A stretch of DNA of 64,000 bases, taken from contig NC_063012.1 in NCBI RefSeq assembly GCF_020509005.1, positions 10,230,001-10,294,000 of the forward strand, in the 5' to 3' direction. The notes under the pieces were generated by a model that was not told where the DNA came from, made no database searches, and saw nothing but the letters and a program-made list of their open reading frames with translations. Position 1 is the first letter of the stretch; each line of letters starts with the position of its first letter. Made by a program: the position numbers and the translations under genes. Origin of the DNA: Fulvia fulva (taxonomy: Eukaryota > Ascomycota > Dothideomycetes > Mycosphaerellales > Mycosphaerellaceae). Below are positions 11,387 to 44,714 of this stretch, piece by piece.

Positions 11387-12115
11387 TATATCTACAAAAA
11401 CTATATTATCCTCTAGTCTACCTTATTTAGCTTAAGCATCCTCTAAACCCTTAATATCCTCCTTACTATCGATTACTATATCCGTCGGGCGGCTAAGCTA
11501 GTACGGCTATATAGAGGCTTAGGGTATATTACGATAAGACACTAACGGCGACTTCTTAGAGAAGCCCGTATAAGACAAAGCTATAGTATAGCTACCTATA
11601 GAAGAGCTATAAAGCCTAGTACTACTAAATAGCGGTACTTTTATAGTTACTAAGACGTATATAGCAATATCCTTATTCTAACGCTTATTATAGAGACTTC
11701 TATCCGCTATTATCCTTATAGAAGTAGGTATACGCGGTTCTATAGTAGCCCTAACGTATTAAGTATCCGAGCCTATGTCTATAGCGTTCGTTTCTATAGA
11801 GCTTAATAGGTTAACTATAGGCGTGTCGAACTCTATCGTACTCGTATTAAGTCTTATCGAGCGGCGTAACGTCCTTACTTATAGCTTAGACGCCGTTACG
11901 GGTGTATTAGTTTACGGTATAACTACCGATATAGACGTACTCGCGTTTTCCGTAGGTAACTACCTAGACTTAGTATAAGATCGTAGTATACTAGTAACTC
12001 GGTCCTTATTAGGTACCTAGTCGTACGGCGGCTTAAAGTCGGCGGGTATAGACTTCGTCGGAAAGTTATAGTAGAAGTCTATAATAGAGGCGGCTACTCC
12101 TACTAATACTTCTAA
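11387..12115 (-). mobile_element. Tail fragment of chromovirus C (no LTR)
   Basis: Reverse-complement match to chromovirus C from about 35,110 to 35,705, the end of its pol frame after the integrase core. Both ends are truncated and no LTR is present. Relative to C it carries about 130 extra bases (near 11,530-11,659) bounded by GTATAT on both sides, either an insertion here or a deletion in C. The open frame at 11,775-11,978 in this stretch is antisense to the dead pol and is not a gene. Confidence 0.7.
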
Positions 12116-12118
12116 GAT

Positions 12119-12302
12119 TATTACGGGTAGCCCGCGACCCCTTACTATAGCTACGTCGGCCCGGGTAAACCGCGGACCTTCCGTATCGGGTTAGCGCGGC
12201 TTAGCTTTACTTTATAACTTCGCCGCGCCTTACGCTCCTCTTTCGTAGCTTCGTAGAATAATAACTCTCTTATTCGGACCCTATAGTACGCGCGCCCTTA
12301 TA
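12119..12302 (+). repeat. Chromovirus B copy 1, 5' LTR
   Basis: 184 bp, begins TATTACGGG (ancestrally TG...) and ends CCCTTATA. Same length as its partner at 19,163 and as both LTRs of copy 2. Confidence 0.92.
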
Positions 12303-12649
12303 GTTTATTCTACTACCTTACCTAGATCGCGGATCGAGGTAAGGGACGCGTAATAATAGGAATAGACAGAACTATAGAACTCGAAGAACGCGTAGAGTCG
12401 TATTAGAATATAGAATACGGTAAGGCGTATAGCGCGTAAATACCTAGAGAACGTAACGCGGTAATATTATTAGTAGGTAGTCGCGCGCTCGTAGACAGTT
12501 AGGAAATAGGCCTCGTTACGCCTCTCCCGAACCTAGACAATATAACTTTATAGACAAACGGCGGTATACTACCGCTACTAAAGCCTAAGGGCAAAGGTAA
12601 GTAGCGTATATCTCTTTTCCCCGACCTCTCCTCTTTTCCTCGGAGTTAG

Positions 12650-15600
12650 AGACAGGACGATAACCGGCGGGTTATAGTAGGTACCGGTGTCGCGCTATAA
12701 TAGGAAATTAATAAAGCTTACTAGAAAGCCTTCGAGCGAGAAGAAGGTAGTAAGATTAACTTTATAGAACTGTTCGAGTTTAAGCTCGAAGAGAACCTAG
12801 GCGGCGACCTAGACGAGGTATATCTATTACTCGATAAGGTAGAGCACATTCTTATATCTAAATACTAGAATATTATACGAGACAAACTTACGACCCTCGT
12901 ATCCTAGTACCCGAAGACTACCTACGACTTCGTACTATAGGTAGTAAATATAGCGATTACTAAAGGTAGACAACTCGATATAATAGAGCGAGCTAATAAC
13001 CTCTAGAACACCTAGTATACTACGCTATATACCGAGTATAACCGTATCTATAAGATACTACGAAGCGAGGAGGCTATAATATAGAAGATAGCCGTAGACC
13101 TAAAGAGTAAGAAGGATTACGACCTAGTAAAGTTATAAGAGGAGAAGAAGAAGGTATAGGATACCGAAGCTAAGAACTAGGCTCTATAGAAGGAGGTTAA
13201 AGATCTAAAGACTCGACTCTAAGCTACTAAAGACACTATATAGAATAGAGGCCGCTCTAGTCGCCGACCCTCCTATTTACCTCCGCGCGAGACTTTACTC
13301 GAGTAGCTAATACATAAGTATCGTAAAGCTACTAGTAGAGGCGGCGGCGGAGGCGGTAGTAACGATAATAACGGCAATAGTAATAACAACCGAGGACGTA
13401 ATAGTAATAGAAACCGTCTACGACCTAATAATAATAACGTTCGCGACTCTCGAGCGCGTAATACCCGTATATAGACTCCCCTAACCGAACTTTTAGAACG
13501 CCTATTTACTATTAACCGTACCCTAATACGCGGTATCGAGGTTAGTAAGGGCGTACCTAACCCGAAGTACTTTAAGAACAATAACGACCCTAACTTCGAC
13601 AGTTAGTATAGTAGCGTACTTCTTAAGCTAACTATAACTACTTTCCGCTCCGAGGTAGACGGCCTACGTTTTATATATAGATAGATATAGGGTGACCCTA
13701 AGAGAAGTATTAAGCTAAGGATCCCCGTACCTAGATAACGATTATTTAACGAGTTCAAGACTAGTAAAGAACTACTAGATTAGATAACGCGCTAGTACGG
13801 CACCCGTAACGAAGGAACTAAGGCTATAGTTAACATCGCTACCTATAAGTAGGAGTAGAGCGAGACCTTTATTACCTTCTACGCTCGCTACTCGAAGCTA
13901 CGTGCTTAGATAGAGTAGACCGACGAGACTAAGCTAATACTATTTCGTAACCGCCTAAACCGTAAGTACTTTATTAAGACTTTCGGCGATAGGGAAGTAG
14001 ATAGACGCTTATACAATATATAGGATATTATTAAGGAATATACGGTACTAGATAAGAGCTTCTACGAGACCGACCGACTATATCTATAGAAGGAGCGCCT
14101 ACGTAGTAACCCTAATTCGAATAATAACGGCGTATAGGGCGGTAGTAATACCGTAGGCGCCGTAGCTATTAGTACGACCGCTATAGTCGTCTAGCGACTA
14201 CTATAATACGTAGGTACGAAGAAGAAGGAGGACCTACCGGTTTACTTATAGAACCTACCTTTATTAAACCGTAAGTAGCGGGAGGACCTTGAGAAGTAGG
14301 GTAAGTACTACCGCTACCGTATAGGCTCGTACGTATTAACGAACCCCGAATACCCGATATATAGTTACGACGGCGACTACCGCCCTCTACGCCTACGAAA
14401 TAACCCTATTCTTAGCTCCCTTACTACCGACCTATAGTAATAGGGAAATGGTACGACCGCTACCTAAGCGTAGTAGATAGCGGTTAGTAACCGAACTTTC
14501 TAAGATAGAAAGAGTATAAGATTAAGAGATATAGAATATAAGAGACGGAGTATAGTAAGGCGCTTAAGATATTAGTATACGTACTAGATAAGTAATAGCT
14601 AGCTATACACCCTTATATAGTATTACCCGTAATAATATAATATAGAAAGGCTCGAGGCCTTATAGATTCTACTTCTACCTCTCTCTTTCTTAACTAGAAA
14701 TTTATACGTAAATATATAATACCCCTAATCCCTTTGACGTAGAGCCGACGACTAACACTAGGAGATAGAACGGCTACTACGCGGTAGATTATATACGCGG
14801 CCCTTATAGACGTAGTTATTGGCGGTTATTACGAGTAAATATTATACTATATTACCGACCTCGAATACGATATCGTCTTTAGCCTACTATAGCTTATAGC
14901 GTATAACCTAAACATCTTCTAGGAGATAGGCGAGGTAGTATTTAGATCGGATTACTACTTTAGTTACTATCTATAGAATAAGATATTAATAACAGTATAA
15001 TCCCTAAACTACCGCGAGAAGAAGAAGTAGGTACTAGTACGGTACGGACTAGAGCCCTTTACTAGAGAAGAAGCGAGCTTTATAGTAGGAGGGGTAGAGC
15101 TAAACGTCTTATTATATAACCTAGAAGATATAGACGATAAAGAAGTAGACTACTAAGGCGTTTCTTAACGCGCGTAGGGGATATACGCGTACCGGCCTAG
15201 GGCTAAGTACTTCTATATTATACCTACTAGGCGTAAGAGCGACGGCGGAGAGCTTAAGCTAAGTGTAATAGCTACTAATAATCTAGACCAATTCTTAAAC
15301 AAGTAGTTTAATTATAACCCGAAGGAGAAGTTACCGCCGATATACTACGATATTACGGACGCTTTCTTAGCTAAGGATTATAAAGGACTCCTACCTTACC
15401 GACTAGGCGTAGATCATAAGATTTATATTAAGCCTAATAGTCTATAAGAGCTACTATACCGTAAGCCCTACGGCCTAGCTAAGAAGGAGAACGAGGTAGT
15501 TAAGAAATAGCTAGACAAGTAAATATCTAAAGGGAAGGTACGGAAAGTAGGGTAAAAGACGAGCTAGTCTCCTATACTAGTACTAGTAGTACGTAAGCCT

Positions 15601-18600
15601 AGAGGTAGGCTACGTGTTTATATCGACTATAGAGGATTAAATACGATTACTATTAAGAACCGGAATCCGATTCCCTTAATATAAGAGACGCTTAACCGTA
15701 TATACGGTAAGAAGTACTTTACGGAGCTAGATATTATAGTAGCCTTTAACAAGTTACAGATAGCTAAAGGGTACGAGTAGTTAACGGCGTTTACGACACG
15801 ATACGGTATCTACGAGTATCTAGTGTTGCTATTCGGCTTGTATAACGGACTAGTATTGTTCTAATTATATATTAATAAGGTCTTATAAGAACACCTAGAC
15901 GACTTTATATTAGCCTACCTAGATAACGTACTTATCTTTAGTAACACCTTAGAGGAGCATATTAAACACGTACGGAAGGTTCTTACTAAGCTACGCGATA
16001 TAGGACTTATAGTAGACATCGATAAAAGCGAATTCTACTAATTGAAGGTGAAGTATCTTAGGCTAATTATAACCCCTAACGGTATCGAGATAGACCCCGA
16101 GAAACTCGAATATATTTAGATATAGGAAGCTCCTAAGAACCTAAAGGATATAGAGGTCTTCCTTAGATTTACTAACTTCTATAGGCGGTTTATCGAAGCA
16201 TTTTTGCGTATAGCTACTCCTCTTATAAACCTGACTAAGTCGGACGGACTAAGCAATCATAAGAATAGAAGGATTTAATAGTCACTAGATTACTAACGAG
16301 CCTTTAACAATTTGAAAGCTACGTTTAGTAAAGCCGGTATACTCGTATATTACGTACTAGGTAGGGAAACAGTAGTAGAGATAGATTCTTTAGATTTTAT
16401 AAACGCCGGCGTACTTTCGTAGTATAACGAGAATAGTATACTATATCCTATAGCCTTCTACTCGAAGAATTTAAGTCTATAGGAGTGTAATTATAACATC
16501 TATAACAAGGAACTATTAGCTATTATTAAGGCTTTTAAGGAATAGAGACCCGAGCTCGCCTACGAGGTAGATAATAAGGACTTATAGCTAGTCAAGATTT
16601 ATACCGACTATAAGAATCTAGAATACTTTATAATAACAAAGTAGCTAAATCGGCGACAAGCGCGTTAGGCTAAGTTCTTATTATAGTTTAACTTTAAGAT
16701 AATATACCGTCTAGGACTTTAAGATATAAAGCTAGATAGCCTAACGAGACGTAGCTAGGACCTTCCGTAGGGGGTAGACGACCCTCGGAACTAGTATTAG
16801 TATTAGACATTACTACCTCCTAAGCGATTCCTTAAGATCGCCTTACTATAGGCAATAGTAGAAGATACGCCGGAAGAAGAGGAACTAGTATAGCTAAACC
16901 CTAAAGCTAAAGAGTTTATACCTATAGAACGAGATACGCCTACTAAATAACCGGCGACGCGTAAAAGTTAGTAGGAAGCCGAACTCGAGTATCGAATGTC
17001 GACGGCGTACGTAACTAATAACGAGCTTAAGACCGCGATTAAGGACCTATAGAAAGACCGTACTCCTATACTACTATAGAGAGCGAAGATTTACCTAGTA
17101 TACTATAAAGTAGATAGCGACCTACTATATATTCGAAATTAATACGACGGCTAGAGCTTATAGGTACTAAATGACTAAGCCTTATAGACTAGGATAATTA
17201 AGATAAACTATAACGCTCTAGTAGTAGGCTATCTAGGACGAGCTCGCACTTATAAACTCGTAGTACGTAAATTCTACTAGCCTAGATTAGCGAGATCCGT
17301 ACGTAGATATACCGCGAATTACTATACCTACCGTATAATAAAATCTCTACACTCCTAGCCACTAGGATTATTATAGCCACTTCCTGTTCTAGATCGGCCT
17401 TAGAAACATATTATAGTCGACTTCGTTATTAGACTCCTAGATAGTACTCTTAACGGTATAGTCTATAATAATATTATAACCGTTACCGATAGGCTTACTA
17501 AGGAAGTCGAGCTAATCCCTATTAGCGTAATAATAGTATAGAATACGGCAAGGCTTTTCCTTAAATATATGTTCTATCGGCGCGAGTTTCCTAATACTAT
17601 TATATAAGACCGTAGTAAGTAGTAGGTTACTACCTTCTAGAAGAAACTCTATAAAATACTCCGTATAAATCGGAAGCTAAGTTCTTTATATTACCTAGAA
17701 ACTAATAGACAGTTAGAACGTACTAACTAGGCGATAGAATAGTATCTTCGTATATTTACTAATAAGGTATAGGATAACTAGGTATAATAGCTATGCCTTA
17801 CTTAGTTCGCGATTAATAATTGCCTATCTAAGACTACTAGTATATCGCCGTTCTACGCTACCTTAGGCTACAACCCTATGTTTATAGAGCGAGTTGACCT
17901 AAACGCTAGAAAGGGGGGAGGACTAACTACTCTCTAGCGACTAGATATACGATTAGTAGAAACCTTTATACGTCGAATTTACGAGCTTTATAAGCACCTT
18001 TAAGAGAATATACGAAGGTTATAAGCTCTCTAAGTAGAAGTAGCAAACCGCTACTAAAGTATTCCTCTAGACTATAAGGTAGGTAATTAGGTATATCTTA
18101 GTACTAAGAACATCCGTACGACTCGACTATCTAAGAAGCTAGATAGGAGATATACCGGCCCTTACTAGATTACGGAAGTTATACCGGCTAGACTCTCTTA
18201 TTAACTAAAACTATTAGACGCTCTAGTAGAACTTAATAACTACTTCTATACCTTACTACTATAACGAGCCGACCACCCTAATTTCCTACTACTTAAAGGG
18301 TAGTATCTAGCGCCGCTACTACCGATAACTATCGAACCTAATACTACCGAGGCTAATATAGTAGCCGACATAGTAGTAGTACCTACGTATATATACGAGG
18401 TAGAAAAGATCCTTAATATATATACCCGTAAGCGGGTAGGTAAGGTAAAGAAGGGGTATAAGCGTAAGGTAGATATATAGTATAGGGTGAAATAGGCTAG
18501 ATATTAGAACGAGGAGGATAGTAAGACCTAGTAACCTATAGATAATATACTTAAACACGTAGCCGCCGCTATTATAGACTTTTACTATAACCGGCCGGAG

Positions 18601-18900
18601 TTATCTACGCCTATAGGCTTCGTAGCTCTATCTAACTAGTCCCTACTAGCTACTAAGGTACTCGGGCTTAATACGATTAGGGTCATTCCGAAAGACACCG
18701 TTACGAATAAGTCGCCTCGAGCCTTACCTCTAATAGAATCTACTCCGTATATATTTACTACGTACCGCTATATTAGCTAGGTTACGGGAAAGCCTACTAT
18801 TATAACTAGGGTCTCCGGTCTTAACTACCGCTCTTAGCTCTATAATAGTACCGGTAGTTATACCGATACTCGAGTAAAGCCTATAGAGCCTATAATAATA
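12650..18900 (+). pseudogene. Chromovirus B copy 1 gag-pol (dead)
   Basis: Conceptual reading through stops gives Gag (about 12,700-14,560), protease region (about 14,600-15,000), reverse transcriptase with [10 protein letters not shown] (about 15,710), LFGLYNG (about 15,830) and AYLDNVLIFSNT (about 15,912), RNase H with a TDYKNLEY-like stretch (about 16,600), integrase (about 17,300-18,200, VTDRLTKE at about 17,485), and a C-terminal chromodomain at about 18,395-18,540 (EVEKIL...KVDI.Y.VKWARY). Stops replace Gln and Trp codons throughout. The 102-codon frame antisense to Gag (13,273-13,581) recurs almost unchanged in copy 2 and is a shadow. Confidence 0.85.
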
Positions 18901-19162
18901 CCTAACTTTAGTTATAATATTATACGCGAGTACTAGCCGAAGACAGACTTAGGTCTAGGGTAAGCTAGCTAACTAGGTAATATATTTCTCGAAGGAAGCC
19001 GGTCGAGGATAGTCTTAATAGAGCGAATGCGATGTTATTAGATAACGACAGGGTACTAGAGGATAATTAGGCGTTCGCGCGATTATAGAGCTCGATAGGT
19101 AAGTAGCCTTATAAGGTAGATAACGCTTAGAGGACTAAGGCGTATTTTGAGAGAGGGGGTAC

Positions 19163-19346
19163 TATTATAGGTAGCCCGCGACCCCTTACTATAGCTACGT
19201 CGGCCCGGCTAAACCGCGGACCTTTCGTATCGGGTTAGCGCGGCTTAGCTTTACTTTATAACTTCGCCGCGCCTCGCGCTCCTCTTTCGTAGCTTCGTAG
19301 AATAATAACTCTCTTATTTAGACCCTATAGTACGCGCGCCCTTATA
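19163..19346 (+). repeat. Chromovirus B copy 1, 3' LTR
   Basis: 184 bp, preceded by the polypurine tract at about 19,149-19,162. Differs from the 5' LTR at only a few positions. Confidence 0.92.
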
Positions 19347-20430
19347 ACTTACTTAACGTTTAAGGAAATCTAATAAGCGTATACGGTAGGAGACGCTATA
19401 GCGAGAGACCTTATTAAGCTATAATAAATAGACGTAGACTAAAGGTAACGGATATATAATATCTTTACTACTACGCGATTAAATCTTACTACCTACCTTA
19501 TCCGAATAATAATAGAGCTAGAGTAAGAGCTAATATACGGCTAGAATACCCTTAGAGCGAAATACTAGGCTCTTAAGGATTAGTATAGCCTAGACGATAT
19601 ACTACGTAAGCGGTAACTTACGCTTAAGTTATCTAGGTATTAGAAGGCTAGCGTACGTAGGATCGATAACTAGTACTTAGACTAGTTAGTTTTATAGACT
19701 AAGATACTTAAGTATAACTACGCCGAGTATAACGACCTTAGTAGATACTTTCTACTTACTATTTAAAAGTAGGCTCTAGCCTACGGCGCCTCTCTATATA
19801 ACGAGTAGAAGCGGGATAAAGTATTACTATAAAAGCTTAGTATTACCGTACCGGCGTATATTTACTTAAACTCGTAGGTACGTACCTAGATCCCGCGCCC
19901 GCTAACTAATTCGACTAGCGGCTTAGCGCCTATATATAACTCTCGCGCCCTCCGCGCCTCTCTTAGATAGAATATCTAAGCGACTTATACCTTACCTAAC
20001 TACGTACTTATACCTACTTATAATACTTACTAAGCGTTATCTCGAGTAGATACGTAATATCGTACTAGTAATAACTAACGGTTAATTAGTCTTTAAAACT
20101 ATCTCTAGAGAACTCTTAGTAGAGAAGGAAATAGGGCCTACTTTATTAGGGGGTACTAGTTAAAAGGAGGGAAACCGTAGTAGTAGCTACGGTAATAAGG
20201 GCCGTAGTAATAGCTACGGCGATAAGGGTAAGAATAAGAATAAGGATAATAATAGGCTAAGCGGCTACTAGAATATTACTAGCGAGCCTAAGGATACCTA
20301 TTATAAGGGCCTATTATATATAATATAATTAAACCTAGTAAGCGCCTAGTAAAGGATTAGTACTTAGAGTAGTATTAACGAGTCGAGGGCCCCTTTAGAC
20401 CCTAAGATTTACGCGTCGAATCTCGTTAAC
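19347..20430 (+). pseudogene. Gag-like pseudogene D, middle part
   Basis: A long reading frame, open apart from RIP-type stops, runs from the edge of chromovirus B copy 1 (19,352) to the copia element. It contains LNLTTYLIRIIIELE and YSLDDILRKR, then after a solo LTR (19,841-20,025) a basic Ser/Gly/Lys/Asn-rich stretch (about 20,165-20,260) followed by a Cys/His-like segment. It resembles a Ty1/copia-type Gag with a C-terminal nucleic-acid-binding region; the family assignment is tentative. Its N-terminal part lies at 44,459-44,714 on the minus strand, separated by an inversion, and its C-terminal continuation begins at 25,972, beyond the copia insertion. Confidence 0.6.
19841..20025 (+). repeat. 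Solo LTR, family G
   Basis: 185 bp beginning TATTACCGTACC and ending TTATAATA, flanked by CTTAG (19,836-19,840) and CTTAC (20,026-20,030), a 5-bp duplication with one difference. An inverted 185-bp copy lies at 27,701-27,885. It interrupts the Gag-like pseudogene D and is the product of recombination between the two LTRs of one insertion. Confidence 0.8.
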
Positions 20431-20664
20431 TATTAAATAGGTACGAGTTACGTAGTAGTAGAAGACGGCGGATCATACGAAAGACAAAGAAGGACCTAAT
20501 AGGATAGCGTATATCTATATATAGTATCGCCGGTATTAGTATAGGTAGATACTAGGTGTCCGGATGTTTACTAGCCTATAGGCTAGTAAACCCTAGTCAC
20601 GTAATCTAGTTATATAACACACCTACACCTATATGCTTGTCCTACGGCCTATATGTTCTCAACA
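20431..20664 (-). repeat. Copia E 3' LTR
   Basis: 234 bp, TATTAAATAGG...CTCAACA; the ancestral ends would be TG...CA. Preceded by TTAAC. Confidence 0.92.
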
Positions 20665-20699
20665 CTCCTACTTAGGCTATATAGTCTCCTACAATCCCT

Positions 20700-23600
20700 T
20701 TACGTAAGCTAGAGCTACCTTATAAAATTTTAGAACTACTAGCTATTAAGCGGCTTTATTAACCTGTTAGTAGCTATGTCCTTTATATAGTAGTAGTCTA
20801 CTATAATCTTCTTCTACTACTAGAGATGTCTAACATAGTTATATATAACATTAATATGCCTTGACCTTTTGTATATATAGGCATCTTTAATAAGTGTTAA
20901 AGCGGCTTAGTTGTTACCTATAAGCTTAACTAGCCTTAGCTCGTTAACAGTACCCTTGCTTGCCCTTATACTCGGCTAGAAAGAGCTCTTTCCTACTAGT
21001 TCTAGGCACCCCATTTCCCTAAGGATAGTAGCAAGAAATTGTGACTACTTTACGGCTACGTTTATAGCTATAAACTCAGCTTCTATTATTAATATTATAA
21101 TAGACTTCTGCTTCCTACTTATCTAGGACATAGGTGATCTATAAAGGAACTATACGTATCCTAGAATTAAGACTCTATCCACTTTGTCTATCGCGTAGTT
21201 AGAGTCCGAGTATCCCTAGAGATTGCCCCCTCCCTTTCTATATATAAGACCTAGGTCTAGGTACGACCGTAGGTATCGGGAGAGCTTCTTTAAAGCCTTT
21301 ATATACTACTACAAGGGATTAGTAACAAATGAGCTAATTCTTCTAAGGGGGAATGCTAAGTCTAGCCTTGTTATTGTCATTAGCTATATCTAGGTACTAT
21401 TATAGCTCTAGTAATCCTATTTGTTACACCTCTTATCTATAGGTGCCGTAGGTACTAAATGCTCGTAGCTCTCTATAGGTAAGTAGGTTAGCGTAGCCTT
21501 CTCTCTAGCTATGTTCATCTTAGCTAAGTTAGCGTAGATATAGTGTCCTTGATCAAGCTTTAAAGTGCCTTAGGACCTGTCTCTTATAATCCTTATTCTA
21601 AGGATCTTCGTAGGTTTACTAAGATCTTTAATCTTAAACACTTTTCTAAGCTTAGCCTTAAACCACTGAACATCTAATAGCTTCGGAGCTACAAAAGGTA
21701 TGTTATCTATATAGGTAAGGACTATAAGGTCTCTATCCGTATAGATAAGTAGGCATAGATCTACCTAGGACTAGGTAAATCTAATCTTCTCTAGCTTCGT
21801 AACACAGAGCTTATTCTAGTCTCTAGCTGCTTACTTAAGCCTATAAAGGCTTTGTAGGACCTTGAACACTATGTTTAGAGGTGCTTTAACTCCTAGGAGT
21901 AGGATTATATAGATGTCTTTAAGAAGGCTACTTTAGGTAAAAGCATTATTCACATCTACTAGGTGCATCTCGAGATCTCTCTTACACACTACTACTATGA
22001 ATACTCGGAGAGTATTATGTCTAATAGTAGGTGTAAAGGTCTCTTCGAAGTCAACCCTATATTTCTATAAAAACCCTCTTATAACTAGTCTTACCTTAAA
22101 CTTCTTAATAGCTCTACTAATCATTCTTTTCACATTAAAGACCTACCTAGAAGTAATTAGATTCGTACCCTTTAGCGGTACAACTGCTTCCTAGGTGTTG
22201 TTACTTACTAAGGCAATAACTTCGTTCTCGATTACCTCTCTCTATATATGTCCCTATTCGGGGTCTCCTACGGCTACCTTATAGGACTTTAGGATTAGTA
22301 CTTCCTACTAATAGGCTATGGCCTACCTAATAGTAGCAAATGTATATTCTTCTACGTCGTTTAGAATCTCCTCTACCTAGCTTATTATAGGGTCTAGATA
22401 GAACATCTAGGCAATAAGAGCCTTATAGTGTTTAGCCTTATACTCTTTAGAGTTATTATCTCCGTCTCCCCTTAACCTCTTGTTACCTATAACCTAAGGT
22501 AGCGCTAGGTGTTCGGATAGGTCGAACTGAACGACATCCTCTTTTTCTTTTATTAGAGTACCCTGATCTCTAAACTTCTAGTATTCCCTAATGTCCTTTA
22601 GGGGAGGGGGAAGTTGTATAAATAGCAGTTACTATAGTATTAATGACTTAGGTAGGTTCTATATAGATCCACCGTTATTGGCCTTCGACAGTATTAAAAC
22701 CGCCTTAATATTTTCTCCTAGTCTTCGTAACGGTGTCTCTAATAATCCCCTATCGGAAAATTTCGCCCTAAAGGGCTTTTTCCTAATAGGATTACGCTAT
22801 AGTGCTCGACTCGGCTAGTTAGTAAAGGTAATACCAAAATCTATATCTCCCCCCTTCTTATTCTTAAACTAGTCGACGTGACTATACGCTTTTATTGCTT
22901 TTATGTCGGGGTCCTAGAATAGCTATTGTTTTGTGGTGTTTTCTAAGTAGCCTATAAACACGGCTTCTTTTCCTCGGTTTATTAACTTGTCTCTCCTTAA
23001 GCCTTAAGGTTAGGCTCTTAGGTCTATATAGACTATAGCTTTATATCCCTAGACGCGGAAATGGTCGACTAACGGTACTTAGCTAGTAAAGGCTTCTTCT
23101 AGTGAAAGAGCAATACTATTAATAATCGGACTATTAGGCAGTCTATTTCTGATTATAGTCTATACTTATAAAGCTTCTAGCTAGAACTTAACTAGTATAC
23201 TAGAGTCTTTAAGTATAGCCCGGACTATATTCTTAGAGGCTTGAATTGACCTTTCTATAGGTCCATTTTGAAGAGAGTTGTAGGCATTAGTAATGTCTAT
23301 CTAAGTACTAAACTCCTTCTCCTACTCTTTTAGTAAGGCGAGAATTTCCTTTATACTATTACTACGGATCGTAGACAGAAAGTACCTTGATTACCGTTCT
23401 GCCTAGACCTTCTAATCCCGTAGGGCTATAGGAGCGTCGCTCCTAGCCTTCAAAGGGATTACCTACTTCTTCCTAGAGAAGTTGTCTACAATCTTAAGCT
23501 AATATTTATATCCTAGCCTAGAGACTGCGCCCTAAAAAGGCCTATAGATGTCAATAGAGATAAGGGCCAGCCTCTCCCCTTTCCTCTCTATAGTAGGTCC

Positions 23601-31800: not shown

Positions 31801-34800
31801 TTATACTACCTAGTCAGAAGTACTACGCTAATCTATTACGAGCCTACGTAATAGTAGCGACTAGGTAAGACTTCGATCCTACTAGGCTCTACGCTATAAA
31901 CCTTCGAAAGGTATAGTTAGTAAACCCCTTAATAGTATATATAATAATAGTAAATAGCGACTTCGACAGATTTATGAAAGGTAAAGACAAGGACTAAGAT
32001 ACTAAGGTCTACTTACCCTAGGAACTATACGATTTCGAGGACTGTTTTAATCGTTAGGATATATCGAAGATCCTACCTTACCGCCCTAGTAAAGACTATA
32101 AAATACACCTTAAAGACGAAACTAAGTCACCTCCTTTTAAGCGGCTATATGTAATGTCGTCTCGCGAGAATAAGGTAATTAAGAAGTAGGTCGATAATTA
32201 GCTAGAATCTAGAGCGATATAACAAAGTACGAGCCCGGCTTCTATACTAGTACTATTTATACGTAAACTAGGCGGCGGTCTACGGGTCTATATCGACTAT
32301 AGAGCTCTTAATACCCTTACGGTCAAAAGTAGATACCTAATACCGCTATTCTAAGAAACGCTAAACCGCCTAAATAGGAAGAAGTACTTTACTAAACTCG
32401 ATATCATCTCTACCTTTAACCGTATTCGTATTACGGAGGGCTACGAATAGAAAACTACGTTTAGTACTTACTATAATCAATTCGAGTATATAGTAATGCC
32501 TTTCGGCCTATATAATGCTCTAGGAACATTCTAATTATATATTAACAATACGCTTCGGGAGTATCTCGATAACTTCTATTTAGTATACCTAGATAATTTC
32601 CTAATCTTTAGCGACACATTCGAGGAACATATATAATACGTACGTAAAGTGCTATAGCGTATACGTAAAGCCGGCCTATAATTAGATATCGATAAATACG
32701 AGTTCTACTAAATAGAGACGAAGTACCTTAGTATTATTATAGGAGTCGACGGTATCCGTATAGACCTAGAAAAGGTCGACGTAGTCAAGAACTAGCTTAC
32801 TCTAATATACCTAAAGGATATAGAAGCATTCCTTAGGTTTAGAAACTTCTATCGAAGGTTTATATAGAACTTCTCTAAAATTTATATGCCTCTTACGAAT
32901 TTAATAAAGACTAGTAAGAATAGTAAGCCGATACTATTCGTTTAGATAATAGAATACGAAGTAGCCTTCTAAGGATTAAAAGATATATTCTTAACGGATA
33001 CGGTACTTATATACTTTGTACTAGGGTTAGAAACTATAGTCGAAATAGATGCCTTAGATTTCGTTACTACGGTAGTAATTTTATAGAAATACGGAGACGT
33101 CTAGAGACCGGTAGTATATATATCTAAGAAGATGTTACTATAGGAGTATAACTACGAGATTTACGACAAGGAACTATTAGCTATCGTCCTCGCCTTCGAA
33201 GAATAGAGACCTAAGCTCACCGTTAACTTAGACGATAATATAGACACCGATTTCGAGAATATAAAGGATATAGATAATATTCCCGTTATTATCTACTCCG
33301 ATTATAAGAACCTAGAATACTTTATAAGTACGAAACAACTTAATAGACGGTAGGCACGCTAGGTATAGTTCCTAGTACAGTTCGTATTCAAAATTAACTA
33401 TTGTCTAGGTATATAGGGTATAAAGCCTAATAGTCTTACTAGACGATCGTAAGATCTACCGTCGGATCTAAGCGATCTACGTCTATAGTATTAGAGCTAG
33501 GTTATCCTACCGCCCGCTCGCCTCGATATTAAGCTCAATTTAAGCGAGCTACGGGAGGGGGAGGTAGCGTAGTAGGTAGTATAGTAGGATTTACTTATAT
33601 AAGTCAAGGCTCTATATAACGAAGAGACCGTTTAGGCTACTATATAATAGCTATCCTAGAACTAGTAAGTACCCCTATTACGTAAACACAAGATCGACGA
33701 TCGTATATCTAAAGTAGAAGATACTATAATCTATATAAAGAACGTTTACGGAGGATATAGCTTATTTGTCCTAGAAGTTACTAGCGTAGTAGAACTTCGT
33801 ACTCTAATTACGAAACGTTTCTACGACATACCCGCGGCTAGGCATCCCGGCCGTAAAAAGACATTCGAGTTGATTAGTAGATACTACCGCTAGCTACGTA
33901 TAGTATAAACGATTAAGAGATTCGTCCGTAATTATATTATATATAGAATAACGGTTCCGTCAAATTAGTAGTATTAGGGCCTCCTTATACTATTGCCGGC
34001 ACCCTTTAGAGTATAGGAGGATGTCGCTATTAACTTCGTTATAGATTTGCCCGTAAGTAAGAGCTTAACCGATAGACAAACGTATAAGAACGTCCTTATA
34101 GTTACGGATAGGCTTACTAAGGAGAGACACCTAATCCTAGTACTATAGATAGACGCCCTAAATATCGTATATATCTTTATCCGCTACATCTTTGTACGTC
34201 CTAGCATTCCTAAGAGTATTGTCTCGGATCGGGGCTCCTAGTAGACGTCTACGTTCTAGAGACGAGTTTACTCCCTACTCGGTATTTAATAACGACTATC
34301 GACGGCCTTTTACCTAGAATCCGATAGATAGTCTAAAAACACGAATAAGGTTATAGAACGTTACCTTAGGGCCTTTATTAACTACGCCTAAGATAATTAG
34401 GTTGATTAGTTACTACTTACCGAGTTTACTACTAACAATTATATATTAGCTACTACTAGAGTATTACCCTTCTACGCTAATACCGGTCGTAACCTAGAAT
34501 TTACGGATACTAGTCTAACTACCCCTATAAAGCTTATACCCTATAAGTAACGACTCGATACAGAATCTACGAATGCGTTTACTAAGCGTATAAACTAGAT
34601 ATACGTATATCTAAGGTAAGAAATTGTATTAGCCTAGGCGTTATAAGTAGATTTTATAAACGTATATCGCTAGCTACCTCTAAACTATAATATCGGCGAC
34701 AAAGTTTATATTAATACTACTAACTAGTTAATAACACGCCCGTCTAAGAAGCTTAATATTAAGAACGTAGGGCCGTACGAGATTACCGTAGTACTCCCGT

Positions 34801-35720
34801 ATCAAAATGCTTACCGCGTTATAATACCCGATTAGTTAGGTAATCTCTATAACACTTTCTACGCCTCGCTCCTATAACTAGCTACTAATGACCCCGAACC
34901 TAGACAGATCCTAGTACCGCCGCCTCTAATCGAGATTACCCGCGATAACGACGGCGAAATATCTAAAGAGTACTTCGTAGAGGATATACTCGATAGGAAA
35001 TATTTTAAGCTAAAGGGAAGACTACTAAAATACTTACTACTAAAGTAAGACGAGTATAAGTACCTACTAAAGTAGAAAGGATACCGCGAGCCGAGCTAGG
35101 AGCTACTAGAAGTATTAGTAGGAGTAGCCGCCTCTATTATAGACTTCTACTATAACTTTCCGACGAAGTCTATACCCGCCGACTTTAAGCCGCCGTACGA
35201 CTAGGTACCTAATAAGGACCGAGTTACTAGTATACTACGATCTTATACTAAGTCTAGGTAGTTACCTACGGAAAACGCGAGTACGTCTATATCGGTAGTT
35301 ATACCGTAAACTAATATACCCGTAACGGCGTCTAAGCTATAAGTAAGGACGTTACGCCGCTCGATAAGACTTAATACGAGTACGATAGAGTTCGACACGC
35401 CTATAGTTAACCTATTAAGCTCTATAAAAACGAACGCTATAGATATAGGCTTAGATACTTAATACGCTAGGGCTACTATAGAACCGCGTATACCTACTTC
35501 TATAAAGATAATAACGGATAGAAGTCTCTATAATAAGCGTTAGAACAAGGATGTTGCTATATACCCTAAGCCTCTATATAGCCGTACTAGCTTTACCGCC
35601 CGACGGATATAGTAATTAATAGTAAGGAGGATATTAAGGGTTAAGAGGATGCTTAAGCTAAATAAGGTGGACTAGAGGATAATATAGTTTTTGTAGATAT
35701 ACTACTATAGAGATAGAGCC
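28850..35720 (+). pseudogene. Chromovirus C gag-pol (dead)
   Basis: Gag (about 28,870-30,900) has Ser/Arg/Gly-rich low-complexity stretches near 29,750-29,960 and a long helical region after it. Reverse transcriptase shows [10 protein letters not shown] (about 32,382), MPFGLYNA (about 32,490) and YLDNFLIFSD (about 32,585). Integrase includes VTDRLTKE (about 34,105) and IVSDRGS (about 34,220). A C-terminal chromodomain-like segment (about 34,970-35,110) reads FVEDILDRKYFKL then YLLKWKGYREPSWE. TAG/TAA stops occur throughout at Gln/Trp positions. Confidence 0.85.
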
Positions 35721-35756
35721 GTCCGAGGACAAATAGCGATCTAAAGGGGGGGGTAC

Positions 35757-35906
35757 TATTACGGTTTACTACTACCGTAACGTCGCGCGCCTTAGCGCTT
35801 CCTTATATATCTCGCGCGCTTCGCGCTTCTCTTTCGTAGCCTTACTAAATAACGCTTATTTTACGGTAACCCTATACTATTGTCTTATAGATTACTACCC
35901 GTAATA
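35757..35906 (+). repeat. Chromovirus C 3' LTR
   Basis: 150 bp partner of 28,308-28,457, preceded by the polypurine tract. Confidence 0.9.
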
Positions 35907-37130
35907 CTAGGGCGCTTATACCCGACCGCCGCTAGCTAGTTCCGGTATAGACTAGCGTTACGGTCGCTATAGAATCTTAGGGCGACGGTTCTATTTATAA
36001 TTGCCTTATTTTTTGCTACTTTCCGCTATAGGCATTCCGCGCTATACGATAGGTAGTACCCCGGACAGTTCGCGTACCGTCTCGTAGCCGATATATAGTC
36101 CCTAGATATATAGTCTTCTATATAGTTCGAGTAGGCCTACTTGTTTATATACGTATAGGTTTAGTGTCTATACTATTAGTATTTAAAGTATTAGAGGATA
36201 CGAAAGGATAAGAAGTACTTTTCTACTATCTTAAGGCTATATTACTAGATTAGGCCTTATTCTATCGCTAGATCCGCCGCTTTTACGTCTTATAGCTATA
36301 CTATTAGCGCTAAGGCCTTCTTACCTTCTAGCCATTTCCTATAGAGCCAAGTCGCCTTCTAGATTAGAGAGTTAAGAGTGACCGGGTTGTCCTCTTAGAG
36401 AGTACGTAGGTAACCTTAGTTAGTTAGGTCGAACTCCTTAGGTATATCGTAGACTAGGATCGTAAATTGCTTCGTTAAGACCTTCGCTAATGCCGTAACC
36501 TTAGATGCCTACTATAGCTATACCTCTAGGTGCCTCCTAGTAGTAGTAGAGCTAGTATAGATCTATAGAGTACCGTTAGACTATTAGTTCGCTACGACTA
36601 CCCCTAGTTAATTAATTCGTTAGGCGAGCTCCTTATTCGATAGTTTCGTAACTTCGGCCTAGTCTTCCTTTACTATAATACGAATCGTAACTATATTATA
36701 CGTTAGGCGGGGGCCTAGTATTGATACCGCGACCGATACCTAGCTATAGGGGTATTAATTCCGGGTATCCTTACTAATAGCCTAAGACGTCGTCCTTATT
36801 TCTTATTACCCTCGGTAATACGATAGTATAAGCGCCGTACGTAGCTAAGTAATTATTAGCTATAGAGACCGGTATAGGAGCTAATCGTTAGTTTCTATAC
36901 TTTTTACGTCCTCTATAAGTTCCTACTAGTTGTCCTAGGGGAGCTTCGCCTATAGAGCCGTAGGCGCCGGTAGTACCGTAGCCTAGGCTACTATTACCTA
37001 GGAGTTGCCTAATGTAGCTAGGTATCTCCGCGGCGTTTAGAGCTAAAGAAATAGAGTAAAGAGAACTTTAAGCTATCTAAATTAAATAAGGTAGAACTCC
37101 CTTACTTCTAGGGGTAGTAGCCTACTTTAT
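35907..37130 (-). pseudogene. LINE ORF1 (gag-like), copy d
   Basis: Inverted relative to copy c and matching it from about 37,110 down to about 36,195, without the solo LTR. Beyond the point where copy c is cut, it continues into a degraded zinc-knuckle region (CFKY..YRH, about 36,170) and a basic tail, as in Tad1-type ORF1. Its left end is cut by chromovirus C. Confidence 0.65.
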
Positions 37131-37212
37131 AGATCGTTAGAATAGCCTTAATAAGAGCTCTCGAATATATTGTATTTAGCGATATAAGGCGAAAATCGGT
37201 CCTCTCTATCTT

Positions 37213-37396
37213 TATAAGGGCCCGCGTACTATAGGGTCCGAATAAGAGAGTTATTGTTCTATAAAGCTAGGAAAGAGGAGCGCGAGGCGCGGCGAAGTTA
37301 TAAAGTAAAGCTAAGCCGCGCTAACCCGATATAGAAGGTCCGCGGTTCACCCGGGCCGACGTAGCTATAGTAAGGGGTCGCGGGCTACCCGTAATA
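37213..37396 (-). repeat. Chromovirus B copy 2, 3' LTR
   Basis: 184 bp, TATAAGGG...CCCGTAATA on the plus strand, followed by GTACCCCCCCTC, the complement of the polypurine tract. Confidence 0.92.
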
Positions 37397-37659
37397 GTAC
37401 CCCCCCTCTTAAAATACGTCTTAGTCCTCTAAGCGTTATCTATCTTATACGGCTACTTGCCCGTACTACTCTATAACCACGCGAAAGTCTAATTATCCTC
37501 TAATACCTTTTTATCGTCTAGTAATATATCTATATCCTATCTATCTATAACTAGCTTATCCGCGACCGGCTCCCTACGAGAAATATACTACCTAGCTAGC
37601 TAGTTTGCCCTAGACCTAAGTCTGTCTTTAGCTAGTACTCGCGTATAATCCTTATAGCT

Positions 37660-40600
37660 AAGGTTAGGTATTATTATAGGCTCTATAGGTTTTACTCGAG
37701 TATCGGTACTACTACCGGTACTATCGTAGAGCTAAGGGTAGTAGGTAATACCGGAGTCCTTAGTTAAGGTAGTAGGCTTTCCCGTAACCTAGTTAGTATA
37801 GCGGTATATAGTAAATATATACTAAGTAGATTCTATTAGAGGTATAGCTCGAGACAACTTATTCGTAACGGTGTTACTATTAACCCTAATCGTATTAAGC
37901 CCGAGGACCTTATTACTTAGGAGGACCTAATTAGATAGAGCTACGGAGCCTATAGGCGTAGATAACTCCGGCCGGTTATAGTAAAAATCTATAATAGCGG
38001 CGGCCGCGTATTTAAATATATTCTTAGCCGGTTACTAGGTCTTACTATCCTCCTTATTCTAATATCTAAGCTATTTCACCTTATACTAAGTGTCTACTTT
38101 ACGCTTCTACCCCTTCTTTACTTTACCTACTTACTTACGGGTATATATATCTAAGATCTTCTCTACCTTATATATATATAGGTGTTACGACTATATTAGC
38201 GACTACATCGGCTTCTATAGTGTCGGGCTCGATAGTTATCGGCGGTAGTAGTACTAGATACTAGCCTTCGAGTAGTAGGAAGTCGGGATAATCGGCTCGC
38301 TAAAGGAACGAAGTATAAAAGTAGTTGTCGAGTCCTACTATAGCGTCCGATAATCTTAGTTTATATAAGAGCTTGGCTAGTATAACCTCTATAATCTAGT
38401 ACGGGCTAGCGTATCTTCTATCGAGCTTCTTAGAAGGTCGAGTCGTACGGATGTTCTTAGTACTTAGGTATACCTAGTCGCCTACTTTATAGTCTAGCGG
38501 GATACTTTAGTAGCGGTTTACTACTTTAGCTTAGAGAGCTTATAATATCTATATGTTTTCTTAAAGATACTTATAAAGGTCGTAAATCCGGCGTATAAAG
38601 GCTTTAGCCGATCGCGTATCTAGTCGCTAGAGAGTAGTTAGTCCTCTCTCTTTTCTAGCGCTTAGGTCTACGCGCTCTATAAACTTAGGGTTGTAGCCTA
38701 AAGTAGCGTAGAATAGCGACATACTAGTAGTTTTAGAAAGGTAGTTATTGATCGCGAACTGAGCTAGACAAAGCTATTCTACCTAGTTATCTTATACCTC
38801 CTTAGTAAATATACGGAGATACTATTCTATTACTTAGTTAGTACGTTCCGACTGTCTATTAGTTTCTAGATAGTATAAAGAACTTAGCTTACGACTTATA
38901 CAAAGTATCTTACAAAGTTTCTTCTAGAAGGTAGTAACCTATTATTTCCCGCGGTCTAAAGTAATAGTGTTAGGAAATCCGCGTCGGGAGAATATATACT
39001 TAAGGAAAAGTCTTGCCGTATTCTATATAGTTATCGCTCCGATCGGAATCAGCTCGACTTCCTTCGTTAGCCTATCTATTACGGTTATAATGTTATTATA
39101 GGTTATACTATCGAGGGTACTATTAGGAAGTCCGACTACGAAGTCTACCGCGATATACCTCTAAGGTCGGTCCGGTACTAAAAGTAGGTATAATAATCTA
39201 GGTAGCTAGGAGTATAGAGATTTCGTCGTACGGTATATACGGTAATTCGCGGTATATCTACGTACTAATCTTACTAAGCTAGGCTAATAGAATTCTCGTG
39301 CTACGAGTTTATAGGTTCGAGCTCGTCCTAGATATCCTACTACTAGAGCGTTATAATTCATTCTAATAAGCCGAGTCCGTAGGGCCTAGTTATTAGGTAC
39401 CTATAGGCTCTAACTATCGTACTAGTTTCGTATATATAATATGTTACTATCTACCTTATAGTGCGCGGGGGTATCTTCGCCTTCTATAAGAGTAGAGGGA
39501 TAGTACTATCTTTCCGTAGTATCTTAATTACCGCCTTAAGTTCTTAGTCTAGGGCGTAAGTAGTCGTTATACGGTACTCGAGTTTAGCTTCGACTTCGGC
39601 TTTATTCGTAGTCTATACTTCCTAAGCTAGTACTAGCTATGTTTATAGTACCTGTTCTAGTTCTAGAATAAACTCGATTGCTTTAGGATTTAGGGGAGTC
39701 GTCTCTTCTTTAATAGTAGCTCGTATAGAGTCGATCTTTAGAAATCGCTCTAGCGGAAGTAATGTCTAATACTAGTGCTGATTTCTCGGATCGTCTACTC
39801 CCTACGGAAGGTCCTAGCTACGTCTCGTTAGGCTATCTAGCTTCGTTCCTTATATACCTAGGCGGTATATAATCTAGAAGTTAAATTATAATAGAAATTC
39901 TACCTATCGCGCTTATCGGCGATTTAGCTACTTCGTAGTTATAAAATATTCGAGGTTCTTATAGTCTATAAACACTTTAACTAGATCGCCGTCCTCGTCT
40001 ACTTCGTAAGTAAGCTCCGGGCGCTACTCTTCGAATACTTTAATAATCGCGAGGAGTTCCTTATCGTAGATCTCGTAATTATACTCCTAGGGGCTTAGCT
40101 TCTTCGAATAGAAAGCTATAGGATATAACACTCCCTACTCGTCGTATTATAAGAGCACACCTATATTAATAAAGTCTAAGGAGTTAGTCTCGACGATAGT
40201 CTACCTACCTAGTATATAGTATACTAGTATACCCGCCTTACTAAACGCTACTTTTAACGCCTCGAATACCCTCTAGTAATTATTAGTCTAGTTGATTCTA
40301 CGGTTCTTATGATTACTAGGCCTATCTGACTTCGTTAGGTTAGTTAATAGGGATGTAATACGAGAGAAGGCCTCGATAAACCTACGGTAGAAGTTCGTAA
40401 ATCCTAGGAAGGCTTAGATATCCTTAAGATTAGTTAGTACTTCCTAGGTCTATATACATTCTAATTTCTCCGGGTCTATCTCGATGCCCTAGGGTATAAT
40501 AATAAGGCCTAGATATTTTATACGTTCCTAGTAGAACTCGGACTTATCGATATTAATAGTAAGCCCGGTATCTCGTAGCTTAATTAATACCTTTCGTACG

Positions 40601-43600
40601 TATTCGACGTATTCCTCTAGAGTGTCGCTAAAGATAAGGACGTTATCTAGATATACTAACATAAAGTTATCTAGATATTCCTATAGAACCTTATTAATAT
40701 ATAACTAAAAGGTTACGGGTCCGTTATAGAGGCCGAACGGTAATACGAGGCATTCGTATATACCGTAGCGTGTTACAAAAGCTATTAGCTACTCGTGCCC
40801 TTCCGCGATACGTAACTTATTAAAGGCTACTATAATATCTAGTTTCGTAAAGTACTTCTTTCCGTATATACGGTTAAGCGTTCCCTATATTAATAGAATA
40901 GGATAGCGATTCTTAATAGTAATAGCGTTTAGCCTACGGTAGTTAATATATACTCGAAGCCCTCCTCTAGGCTTTCTTACTACTAATACCGGTGCCGGTG
41001 ACTAGCTTATTTTCTAACCGGCCTTACGTACCTTACCTTCTAAAGTCTATTCGAGTAACTTTTTCTTAACGGCTTTATTCTCCTTCTCGGCTAGTCCGTA
41101 TAGCTTTCGATATAGCGGTTCTTAAGGTCTACCGGGTTTGATATAAATCTCGTAGTCGATACCTAGTCGGTAAGGTAGGAGTCCCTCGTAATCCTTTACT
41201 AAGAAAGTATCTATAATGTCGTAGTATATAGGCGGGAGCTTCTCTTTAGGATTGTAGTTGAACTGCTTATTTAAGAACTGATCTAGGTCATTAGCTACTA
41301 TCGCGCTTAGTTTAAGGCTATTATCGTTATTATCGTTATCCTCGCGCCCCGTAGGTAAAATATAGAAGTACTCGGCCCTAGGCCGGTACGCGTATATCTC
41401 CTATACGCGCTACGAGACTTCCTAGTAATCCACCTCTTTATCTACCTCTAGAGCGGATATATTTAGCTCCGCCCCTCCGGCTATAAATCCTACTAATTTG
41501 CTAGTAAAGGGCTTTAGTCTATATTTCGTTTACTAGGTTCTACCGATATAGTTTAGAGATTATACTATTATCGATGTCTTATTATATAGATAGTAACTAA
41601 AGTAGTAGTTAGATCTAAACGCTACCTCGCTAGTTTCCTAGAAGATATTCAGGTTATACGCGGAGAGCTATAGTAGTCTAAAGACAATTTTATATTCGAG
41701 GTCGGTAACGTAATATAGTATTCGCTCGTAATAACCGCCGATAACCACGTCTATAAGGGCTGTATATATAATCTAACGCGCTATAGCCGATCTATCTCCT
41801 AGTATTAATCGTCTGTTCTTCGTTAAAGGGATTAAGGGGGTTATATATTTACGTATAAATTTCTAATTAGGAAAGAGAGAGGTAGAGGTAGAATCTATAA
41901 GGCCTCGAGCCTTTCTATATTATATTATTACGGGTAATACTATATAAGGGTGTATAGCTAGCTATTACTTATCTAGTACGTATACTAATATCTTAAGCTC
42001 CTTACTATACTCCGTCTCTTACATTCTATATCTCTTAATCTTATACTCTTTCTATCTTAGAAAGTTTAGTTACTAACCGCTATCTACTACGCTTAGGTAG
42101 CGGTCGTACTATTTCCCTATTACTATAGGTCGGTAGTAAGGGAGCTAAGGTTCGGGTTAGCGTTCGCGTTGTTTCGTAGACGTAGAGGGCGGTAGTCGCC
42201 GTCGTAACTATATATCGGGTATTCGGGGTTCGTTAATACGTACGAGCCTATACGGTAGCGGTAGTACTTACCCTACTTCTTAAGGTCCTCCCGCTACTTA
42301 CGGTTTAATAAAGGCAGGTTCTATAAGTAAACCGGTAGGTCCTCCTTCTTCTTCGTACCTACGTATTATAGTAGTCGCTAGACGACTATAGCGGTCGTAC
42401 TAATAGCTACGGCGCCTACGGTATTACTACCGCCCTATACGCCGTTATTATTCGAATTAGGGTTGCTACGTAGGCGCTCCTTCTATAGATATAGTCGGTC
42501 GGTCTCGTAGAAGCTCTTATCTAGTACCGTATATTCCTTAATAATATCCTATATATTGTATAAGCGTCTATCTACTTCCCTATCGCCGAAAGTCTTAATA
42601 AAGTACTTACGGTTTAGGCGGTTACGAAATAGTATTAGCTTAGTCTCGTCGGTCTACTCTATCTAAGCACGTAGCTTCGAGTAGCGAGCGTAGAAGGTAA
42701 TAAAGGTCTCGCTCTACTCCTACTTATAGGTAGCGATGTTAACTATAGCCTTAGTTCCTTCGTTACGGGTGCCGTACTAGCGCGTTATCTAATCTAGTAG
42801 TTCTTTACTAGTCTTGAACTCGTTAAATAATCGTTATCTAGGTACGGGGATCCTTAGCTTAATACTTCTCTTAGGGTCACCCTATATCTATCTATATATA
42901 AAACGTAGGCCGTCTACCTCGGAGCGGAAAGTAGTTATAGTTAGCTTAAGAAGTACGCTACTATACTAACTGTCGAAGTTAGGGTCGTTATTGTTCTTAA
43001 AGTACTTCGGGTTAGGTACGCCCTTACTAACCTCGATACCGCGTATTAGGGTACGGTTAATAGTAAATAGGCGTTCTAAAAGTTCGGTTAGGGGAGTCTA
43101 TATACGGGTATTACGCGCTCGAGAGTCGCGAACGTTATTATTATTAGGTCGTAGACGGTTTCTATTACTATTACGTCCTCGGTTGTTATTACTATTGCCG
43201 TTATTATCGTTACTACCGCCTCCGCCGCCGCCTCTACTAGTAGCTTTACGATACTTACGTATTAGCTACTCGAGTAAAGTCTCGCGCGGAGGTAAATAGG
43301 AGGGTCGGCGACTAGAGCGGCCTCTATTCTATATAGTGTCTTTAGTAGCTTAGAGTCGAGTCTTTAGATCTTTAACCTCCTTCTATAGAGCCTAGTTCTT
43401 AGCTTCGGTATCCTATACCTTCTTCTTCTCCTCTTATAACTTTACTAGGTCGTAATCCTTCTTACTCTTTAGGTCTACGGCTATCTTCTATATTATAGCC
43501 TCCTCGCTTCGTAGTATCTTATAGATACGGTTATACTCGGTATATAGCGTAGTATACTAGGTGTTCTAGAGGTTATTAGCTCGCTCTATTATATCGAGTT

Positions 43601-43930
43601 GTCTACCTTTAGTAATCGCTATATTTACTACCTATAGTACGAAGTCGTAGGTAGTCTTCGGGTACTAGGATACGAGGGTCGTAAGTTTGTCTCGTATAAT
43701 ATTCTAGTATTCAGATATAAGAATGTGCTCTACCTTATCGAGTAATAGATATACCTCGTCTAGGTCGCCGCCTAGGTTCTCTTCGAGCTTAAACTCGAAC
43801 AGTTCTATAAAGTTAATCTTACTACCTTCTTCTCGCTCGAAGGCTTTCTAGTAAGCTTTATTAATTTCCTATTATAGCGCGACACCGGTACCTACTATAA
43901 CCCGCCGGTTATCGTCCTGTCTCTAACTCC
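37660..43930 (-). pseudogene. Chromovirus B copy 2 gag-pol (dead)
   Basis: Mirror image of the copy 1 frame: Gag about 43,900-42,000, reverse transcriptase about 40,890-40,400 (YLDN box near 40,650), integrase about 39,300-38,350, chromodomain about 38,170-38,020. The same stops recur. The plus-strand frame 42,991-43,299 is an antisense shadow of Gag. Confidence 0.85.
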
Positions 43931-44269
43931 GAGGAAAAGAGGAGAGGTCGGGGAAAAGAGATATACGCTACTTACCTTTGCCCTTAGGCTTTAGTAGCGG
44001 TAGTATACCGCCGTTTGTCTATAAAGTTATATTGTCTAGGTTCGGGGGAGGCGTAACGAGGCCTATTTCCTAACTGTCTACGAGCGCGCGACTACCTACT
44101 AATAATATTACCGCGTTACGTTCTCTAGGTATTTACGCGCTATACGCCTTACCGTATTCTATATTCTAATACGACTCTACGCGTTCTTCGAGTTCTATAG
44201 TTCTGTCTATTCCTATTATTACGCGTCCCTTACCTCGATCCGCGATCTAGGTAAGGTAGTAGAATAAAC

Positions 44270-44453
44270 TATAAGGGCGCGCGTACTATAGGGTCCGAAT
44301 AAGAGAGTTATTATTCTACGAAGCTACGAAAGAGGAGCGTAAGGCGCGGCGAAGTTATAAAGTAAAGCTAAGCCGCGCTAACCCGATACGGAAGGTCCGC
44401 GGTTTACCCGGGCCGACGTAGCTATAGTAAGGGGTCGCGGGCTACCCGTAATA
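44270..44453 (-). repeat. Chromovirus B copy 2, 5' LTR
   Basis: 184 bp partner of 37,213-37,396, followed by TAAGT. Confidence 0.92.
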
Positions 44454-44714
44454 TAAGTAGGCTCTATTAGCCCGTTACTTAGTTAGTAAGGATCTATATA
44501 CTTCTAGATATATAAAGACTTTACGTAGAGCTCTAGCTAACGGTTAAACTTATCCTATTAGTTATAGCTCTTTATAACTATAGTACTCTAAGGTAGGGTA
44601 CCGGTAGTTACTACGGTCTCGGTAGTAGCTATAACTACGAATAGGTTATAAGTAGGCTAGTAAAATTTCTACGCGGGTTTACTAGGCCTAGGGGGTACTA
44701 CTATACTAGCTATA
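44454..44714 (-). pseudogene. Gag-like pseudogene D, N-terminal part
   Basis: On the minus strand this reads a Gag-type frame including DKFNR.LELYVKSLYI and ending GLIEPT at the edge of chromovirus B copy 2. After removal of one ACTTA it joins in frame to LTFKEI at 19,353, the start of the larger Gag part on the opposite strand. The Fot1-type element at 44,715 cuts its other side. The stop codons seen are of the RIP type. Confidence 0.6.

Follow-up and report, generated by a model that had tools for sequence, protein, structure and literature searches.

Two oppositely oriented long terminal repeat (LTR) retrotransposons in the genome of Fulvia fulva (Cladosporium fulvum) very probably record an inversion that arose by a crossover within their shared 5' part, with DNA copied in the same or a separate step, probably from one of them (element A) onto the other (element B), after both had undergone repeat-induced point mutation (RIP). 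They lie in a stretch of 64,000 nucleotides, here called the window, which corresponds to C1:10230001-10294000 of a genome of 67,169,167 bases in 14 contigs. Element A belongs to a subfamily that we call alpha, and element B is a hybrid of alpha and a second subfamily, beta. In the present order, the two copies, their LTRs and the flanking target repeats are:

12114-12118, + strand: AAGAT, half of the target repeat of element A
12119-19346, + strand: copy 1, of element A type and almost the same as copy 2 in its 5' part, the remainder from element B (alpha/beta hybrid)
12119-12302, + strand: 5' LTR of copy 1, identical to 44270-44453
19163-19346, + strand: 3' LTR of copy 1, in which LTR position 47 is C, as in the hybrid/beta lineage
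19347-19351, + strand: ACTTA, half of the target repeat of element B
19347-37212, no strand: spacer of 17,866 bp between the copies, entirely within the segment taken to be flipped
37208-37212, + strand: ATCTT (AAGAT on the - strand), other half of the target repeat of element A
37213-44453, - strand: copy 2, alpha subfamily wherever compared (copy positions ~1-4354 and 5558-7241)
37213-37396, - strand: 3' LTR of copy 2
44270-44453, - strand: 5' LTR of copy 2
44454-44458, + strand: TAAGT (ACTTA on the - strand), other half of the target repeat of element B

The first indication of an inversion was the crosswise arrangement of the 5-bp target-site duplications (TSDs), which on the + strand read AAGAT, copy 1, ACTTA, and then ATCTT, copy 2, TAAGT. 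The original prediction had described these repeats, the boundaries of both copies and the four 184-bp LTRs correctly. It had put the probability of chance agreement at about one in a million; recalculated from the 5-mer frequencies of the RIPped left 46 kb of the window, it comes to 3.7e-6 if the two words are fixed and to 6.3e-6 if any words may match, both post hoc figures in which the number of pairs that a reader might inspect is uncounted. Same-family copies in opposite orientation and exchanged TSDs, two of the marks by which inversion through ectopic recombination is recognized, are both present. The paired 184-bp LTRs and the 5-bp target repeat fit a chromovirus, as does a sibling element elsewhere in the genome with TATTA on either side. 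One open piece per copy matches the reverse transcriptase family PF00078 (E-values of 4.2e-08 and 3.8e-07), and 8 of the 10 open pieces scanned against Pfam gave no match. Near copy position 6363-6369 there is a motif that looks chromodomain-like by eye; Pfam found nothing in either of the two pieces carrying it (stops read as X), and an Rfam search returned 0 matches.

A second line of evidence does not depend on the 5-mers. If the inversion is undone, the ACTTA insertion site should consist of the reversed right flank of copy 1 joined to the right flank of copy 2 across a single 5-mer, two halves that now lie 25 kb apart. A 201-base query built in this way, with the join after base 98, was matched across the join at all 40 scored places (of 147 candidates), at 93-96% identity and over query positions 6-199 or more, and the uninterrupted site could be read letter by letter in 20/20 loci. 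In contrast, a control join in the present order, made from the two flanks of copy 2, was crossed at 0/40 scored places (1135 candidates); its halves match separately, and two of the 40 places are the window's own halves. Since the uninverted join is contiguous elsewhere, the target of the ACTTA insertion was a common repeat, R3, whose two parts now lie separated and in opposite orientation:

19347-19842, - strand: first contiguous stretch of the left half of R3, separated from the right half by the flip
44459-44714, + strand: right half of R3

The inversion by homologous recombination between inverted copies that had been proposed is therefore supported both by the swapped repeats and by R3. 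Its extent needs to be redrawn, and so does the likeness of its partners. The copies had been called almost identical; aligned end to end, they differ in 1143/7268 columns, and their likeness is very unevenly spread. Copy positions 1-2274 are identical at 2267/2274 sites (99.7%), and the 7 differences are all transitions; positions 2275-2554 agree in 272/292 columns, and positions 2555-7044 in 3416/4518 (76%). The 5' LTRs of the two copies are identical at 184/184 sites and the 3' LTRs at 170/184, and within each copy the 5' and 3' LTRs differ at 8 and 10 sites. We refer to the near-identical part as the conversion tract:

12119-14392, + strand: conversion tract in copy 1, 99.7% identical to 42180-44453
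42180-44453, - strand: conversion tract in copy 2

The right edge of the tract falls between copy positions 2069 and 2282 (14187-14400 in the window), where a 12-bp length difference starts. A crossover inside the tract would give a flipped segment of 27,773-32,335 bp, so that 19347-37212, the 17.9 kb originally thought to be inverted, is only its spacer. A crossover in the 3' part was considered and rejected, as body and 3' LTR agree at LTR position 47 in both copies and positions 2555-7044 are only 76% identical.

We also asked whether the tract is no more than the ordinary 5' likeness of the family, and the answer was no. The tract matches other places at 90-96% (40 scored of 631 candidates). 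Over positions 185-2274 the two copies differ by 7 transitions, with 0 transversions and 0 gaps, whereas 44 of the 45 pairs among the 10 other alpha copies differ by 66-111 transitions plus 12-28 transversions. The exceptional pair, L073 (C10:1746164-1748245, - strand) and L074 (C10:1669893-1671972, + strand), is an inverted duplication with matching flanks: its arms, oppositely oriented and separated by about 76 kb, show 99.84% identity over ~5,080 bp with the flanks counted, and the duplicated DNA had already been RIPped.

The tract is further marked by 23 states that are common to copies 1 and 2 and absent from 11 other copies, 22 of which lie inside positions 113-2068. Among the other 77 pairs, 76 share no more than 6 such private states. 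When a twelfth copy, L006 (covering positions 1-1627), is added, 14 of the 17 states within its range are still private to copies 1 and 2. At the neighbouring sites 113/114, 344/345, 735/736 and 1598/1599 the pair reads TA and the others CG. Such replacements are of the deamination type expected of RIP, which suggests that the tract was copied as DNA after RIP had acted. At 4 of the 7 sites that distinguish the two arms of the tract, one copy reads TpA and its partner CpA or TpG. With only 26-27 CpA/TpG left per arm, a scarcity of later RIP hits is no sign of a recent event.

LTR position 47 bears on the direction of copying. The 3' LTR of copy 1 has C there, as do the two LTRs of the sibling hybrid and the single beta 5' LTR that extends over the site (L081 is uncounted, the site being outside its coverage). 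The letter is G in the 5' LTRs of copies 1 and 2, in the 3' LTR of copy 2, in 10/10 alpha 5' LTRs and in 6/6 further LTRs. The 5' LTR of element B thus looks overwritten by that of element A, and the tract was probably copied from the AAGAT element (A) onto the ACTTA element (B). Copy 1 is a mosaic, its tract and the 5' LTR letter at position 47 standing against its body and 3' LTR.

A second, older junction lies within copy 1:

14547-14673, + strand: alpha-to-beta switch in copy 1, common to one sibling element

In diagnostic columns drawn from 8 alpha copies (10 less L076 and L080) and 2 beta copies, with positions below 130 excluded from the count, copy 1 groups with alpha as far as position 2429 and with beta from 2555 onwards; the last bin, past 2700, lies beyond the end of the beta pieces and is uninformative. 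All 10 alpha copies entered the pairwise tract comparison above. In other genome copies, among L071-L080, the 5' module continues into sequence of the copy 2 type (first 3.2 kb compared), and the copy 2 type of 3' end is present in L003, L005 and L007. Sequence of the copy 1 type occurs in at least 39 other places (40 scored of 1335). Across the switch itself, C2:423239-424239 matches at 96%, against 86-89% for the other full matches (40 scored of 603 candidates). It belongs to the sibling hybrid L083/L084 (C2:419012-426221, - strand; TSD TATTA on both sides), of which the ends were read. Because a sibling with its own TSD shares the switch, the switch is older than the inversion, and the hybrid structure of element B, which probably arose by template switching, predates its insertion. 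For the same reason the switch was rejected as the crossover point of the inversion. Elsewhere, at C9:331622-368251, five alpha 5' modules with near-equal scores follow one another, the last four exactly 7,096 bp apart and the first gap measuring 14,074; this looks like a tandem array of elements.

The history that we favour would begin with A (alpha, at AAGAT) and B (the hybrid, at ACTTA) inserted in opposite orientation. RIP would have inactivated both. A later crossover in the shared alpha-type 5' part, the stretch in which they were most alike, would have flipped the 27.8-32.3 kb between the crossover points and exchanged the target repeats, and about 2.2 kb of the 5' end of A, including the LTR, would have been copied onto the 5' end of B in the same or a separate step. 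A double-strand break in B, repaired from A and resolved as a crossover, could produce the whole pattern in one step. That only copy 1 retains a mismatch between its parental parts is what one-way copying with, before or after the exchange would leave.

Whether copying and crossover were a single event is the point on which a variant of this history turns. Conversion without crossover may have come first and the crossover later, within the 2.2 kb by then nearly identical, or the order may have been the reverse. Near-identity over such a length would ease a later crossover, and the data give no order; nevertheless, two events are needed where one suffices, and we regard this variant as possible though the less likely of the two. 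An artefact of assembly is improbable. In that case the assembler would have flipped the middle by way of the near-identical 2.27-kb arms, the true order being AAGAT-AAGAT and TAAGT-TAAGT. The arms, at 99.7% identity, do bound the segment in question. However, the source assembly, of isolate Race 5, is described in the relevant passages of its report as gap-free and built from PacBio reads at ~125x with a mean length of 14.6 kb, twice the length of the element, and its Hi-C data as showing no visible misassembly (PMC9453070). The 7 transitions between the arms, with their 4 TpA sites, make it unlikely that one stretch was used twice, and conversion would still be required to explain the arms.

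Template switching during reverse transcription, before insertion, as the source of both the hybrid copy and the shared 5' tract is very improbable: the alpha/beta switch (2429-2555), shared with a sibling that has its own TSD, is probably of this kind, yet it would not account for RIP-type states in 1-2274 shared by the pair and lacking in 11 other copies, for the conflict at position 47 between the 5' and 3' LTRs of copy 1, or for target repeats that are swapped. Scarcely credible is the absence of any inversion, with two insertions whose target repeats were unlike, mutated or matched by chance; RIP does alter letters, TSDs may decay and the AAGAT site has no independent witness, but chance agreement is ~4e-6 and R3 is split exactly as predicted.

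Several observations weigh against a crossover with copying from A to B after RIP, or against parts of it. A strictly reciprocal exchange would leave two mosaics and only one is seen, so that a conversion step must be added. The direction of copying hangs on one transversion. L006 carries 3 of the 17 in-range states (LTR position 113 and positions 218 and 1280); the state at LTR 113 also occurs in L003 and L004 and that at 114 in L003, and one state exclusive to copies 1 and 2, at position 2432, sits past the tract. The AAGAT site has no independent empty-site witness. Its joined form was not found elsewhere among 40 scored of 817 candidates, which were filled by the repeat R1, and a search allowing up to 3 mismatches gave 0 matches. 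R1, which flanks this site on the left, has a different continuation in 18/18 other copies read (the window's second R1 copy among them), which places the break in R1, 4 bp short of the LTR, earlier than the arrival of the element. The present-order join across copy 1 was compared within the window only, and the evidence as a whole comes from the assembled sequence of one isolate.

LTR retrotransposons do not move by cut and paste, and the hybrid-insertion model discussed for the Drosophila transposon Galileo is therefore inapplicable here. The mechanism favoured above is already known from Galileo, and the present locus is an unusually readable fossil of such an event. Among the inversions that Galileo has caused in Drosophila buzzatii, 2z3 in particular is reported to have chimeric copies and exchanged TSDs, with ectopic recombination given as the cause, as we propose here for opposite copies of one element (PMC2775673). 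Galileo differs in being a terminal-inverted-repeat transposon for which uninverted chromosomes were available for comparison (PMC2775673); our case concerns an LTR retrotransposon in RIPped fungal DNA, a segment of 28-32 kb, one isolate, and a single copy that is mosaic owing to conversion. Closer in material is the Podospora element crapaud, likewise a RIPped fungal LTR element, in which the 5' and 3' ends disagree in 7 of 150 full copies, a mismatch ascribed to gene conversion or ectopic recombination; the crapaud passages mention neither swapped target repeats nor an inversion between copies (PMC10787394).

Within C. fulvum, a comparison of five genomes, Race 5 among them, ascribes losses of Avr genes to recombination between neighbouring element copies and, in its main text, describes three large rearrangements and 718-843 structural variants per isolate, of which 697-822 are insertions or deletions (PMC10823647). 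Apart from deletions and translocations, the rearrangements given there comprise two inversions, both large (1.2 Mb on Chr1 of Race 2.4.9.11 and 654 kb on Chr10 of Race 0WU), in contrast to the small inversion considered here in the same species, and the text, supplements aside, names no small Race 5 inversion at this locus (PMC10823647). In the literature searches made, going by titles and the openings of abstracts, we recognized no report of an inversion between LTR elements with exchanged TSDs in a fungus affected by RIP.

The locus offers a base-level record of a rearrangement in a repeat-rich genome: its partners, its place, the probable direction of copying and a timing after RIP. More generally, and tentatively, retrotransposons silenced by RIP may stay live substrates for crossover and for directional conversion of at least 2 kb, which would homogenize copies, reset LTR "clocks" and flip the DNA between them. 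If so, many small inversions of this kind may exist in fungal genomes subject to RIP, where swapped target repeats and mismatched LTR pairs would make them readable. The same reading of swapped repeats, split host repeats and unlike LTR pairs could be extended to every pair of elements across the five published C. fulvum assemblies. Dating by LTR likeness is unsafe here, as the identical 5' LTRs appear to stem from copying and not from youth.

Two further repeats adjoin the AAGAT site:

11387-12114, + strand: R1 fragment, broken at 12114 beside the AAGAT site
35907-37197, - strand: R2, adjoining the AAGAT site

The right flank of the site consists of ~15 bp followed by R2. At 33607-37197, an LTR element (R1, starting at 35906 on the - strand) is inserted in R2 at CCCTAG. 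Elsewhere R2 continues with GGCCGAG or a near variant in all 16 copies showing its end (19 searched); a search of the window did not recover this continuation, and one query gave just two short matches, both to other places. The R1 fragment at 11387-12114 is cut short, like R2, and its continuation occurs in the window only in the R1 copy at 35106-33607.

The left 46 kb of the window form a block of RIPped repeats, with a (CA+TG)/(AC+GT) ratio of 0.05-0.38 per 2 kb; the ratio is 0.83 in the 2 kb that follow (46-48 kb) and 1.18-1.46 from 48 kb onwards. The border with gene-rich DNA is sharp, at 46000-48000 just to the right of copy 2, where the ratio passes from 0.12 (44-46 kb) through 0.83 to 1.3 (48-50 kb). 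Past it, the protein encoded at 48005-50104 has its nearest named relative in Dothistroma septosporum (40% identity). Inside the block, 20001-26000 shows a weaker loss of CpA/TpG (ratio 0.36-0.38) and scarcer CpG than elsewhere, which we read as a different repeat or a different history.

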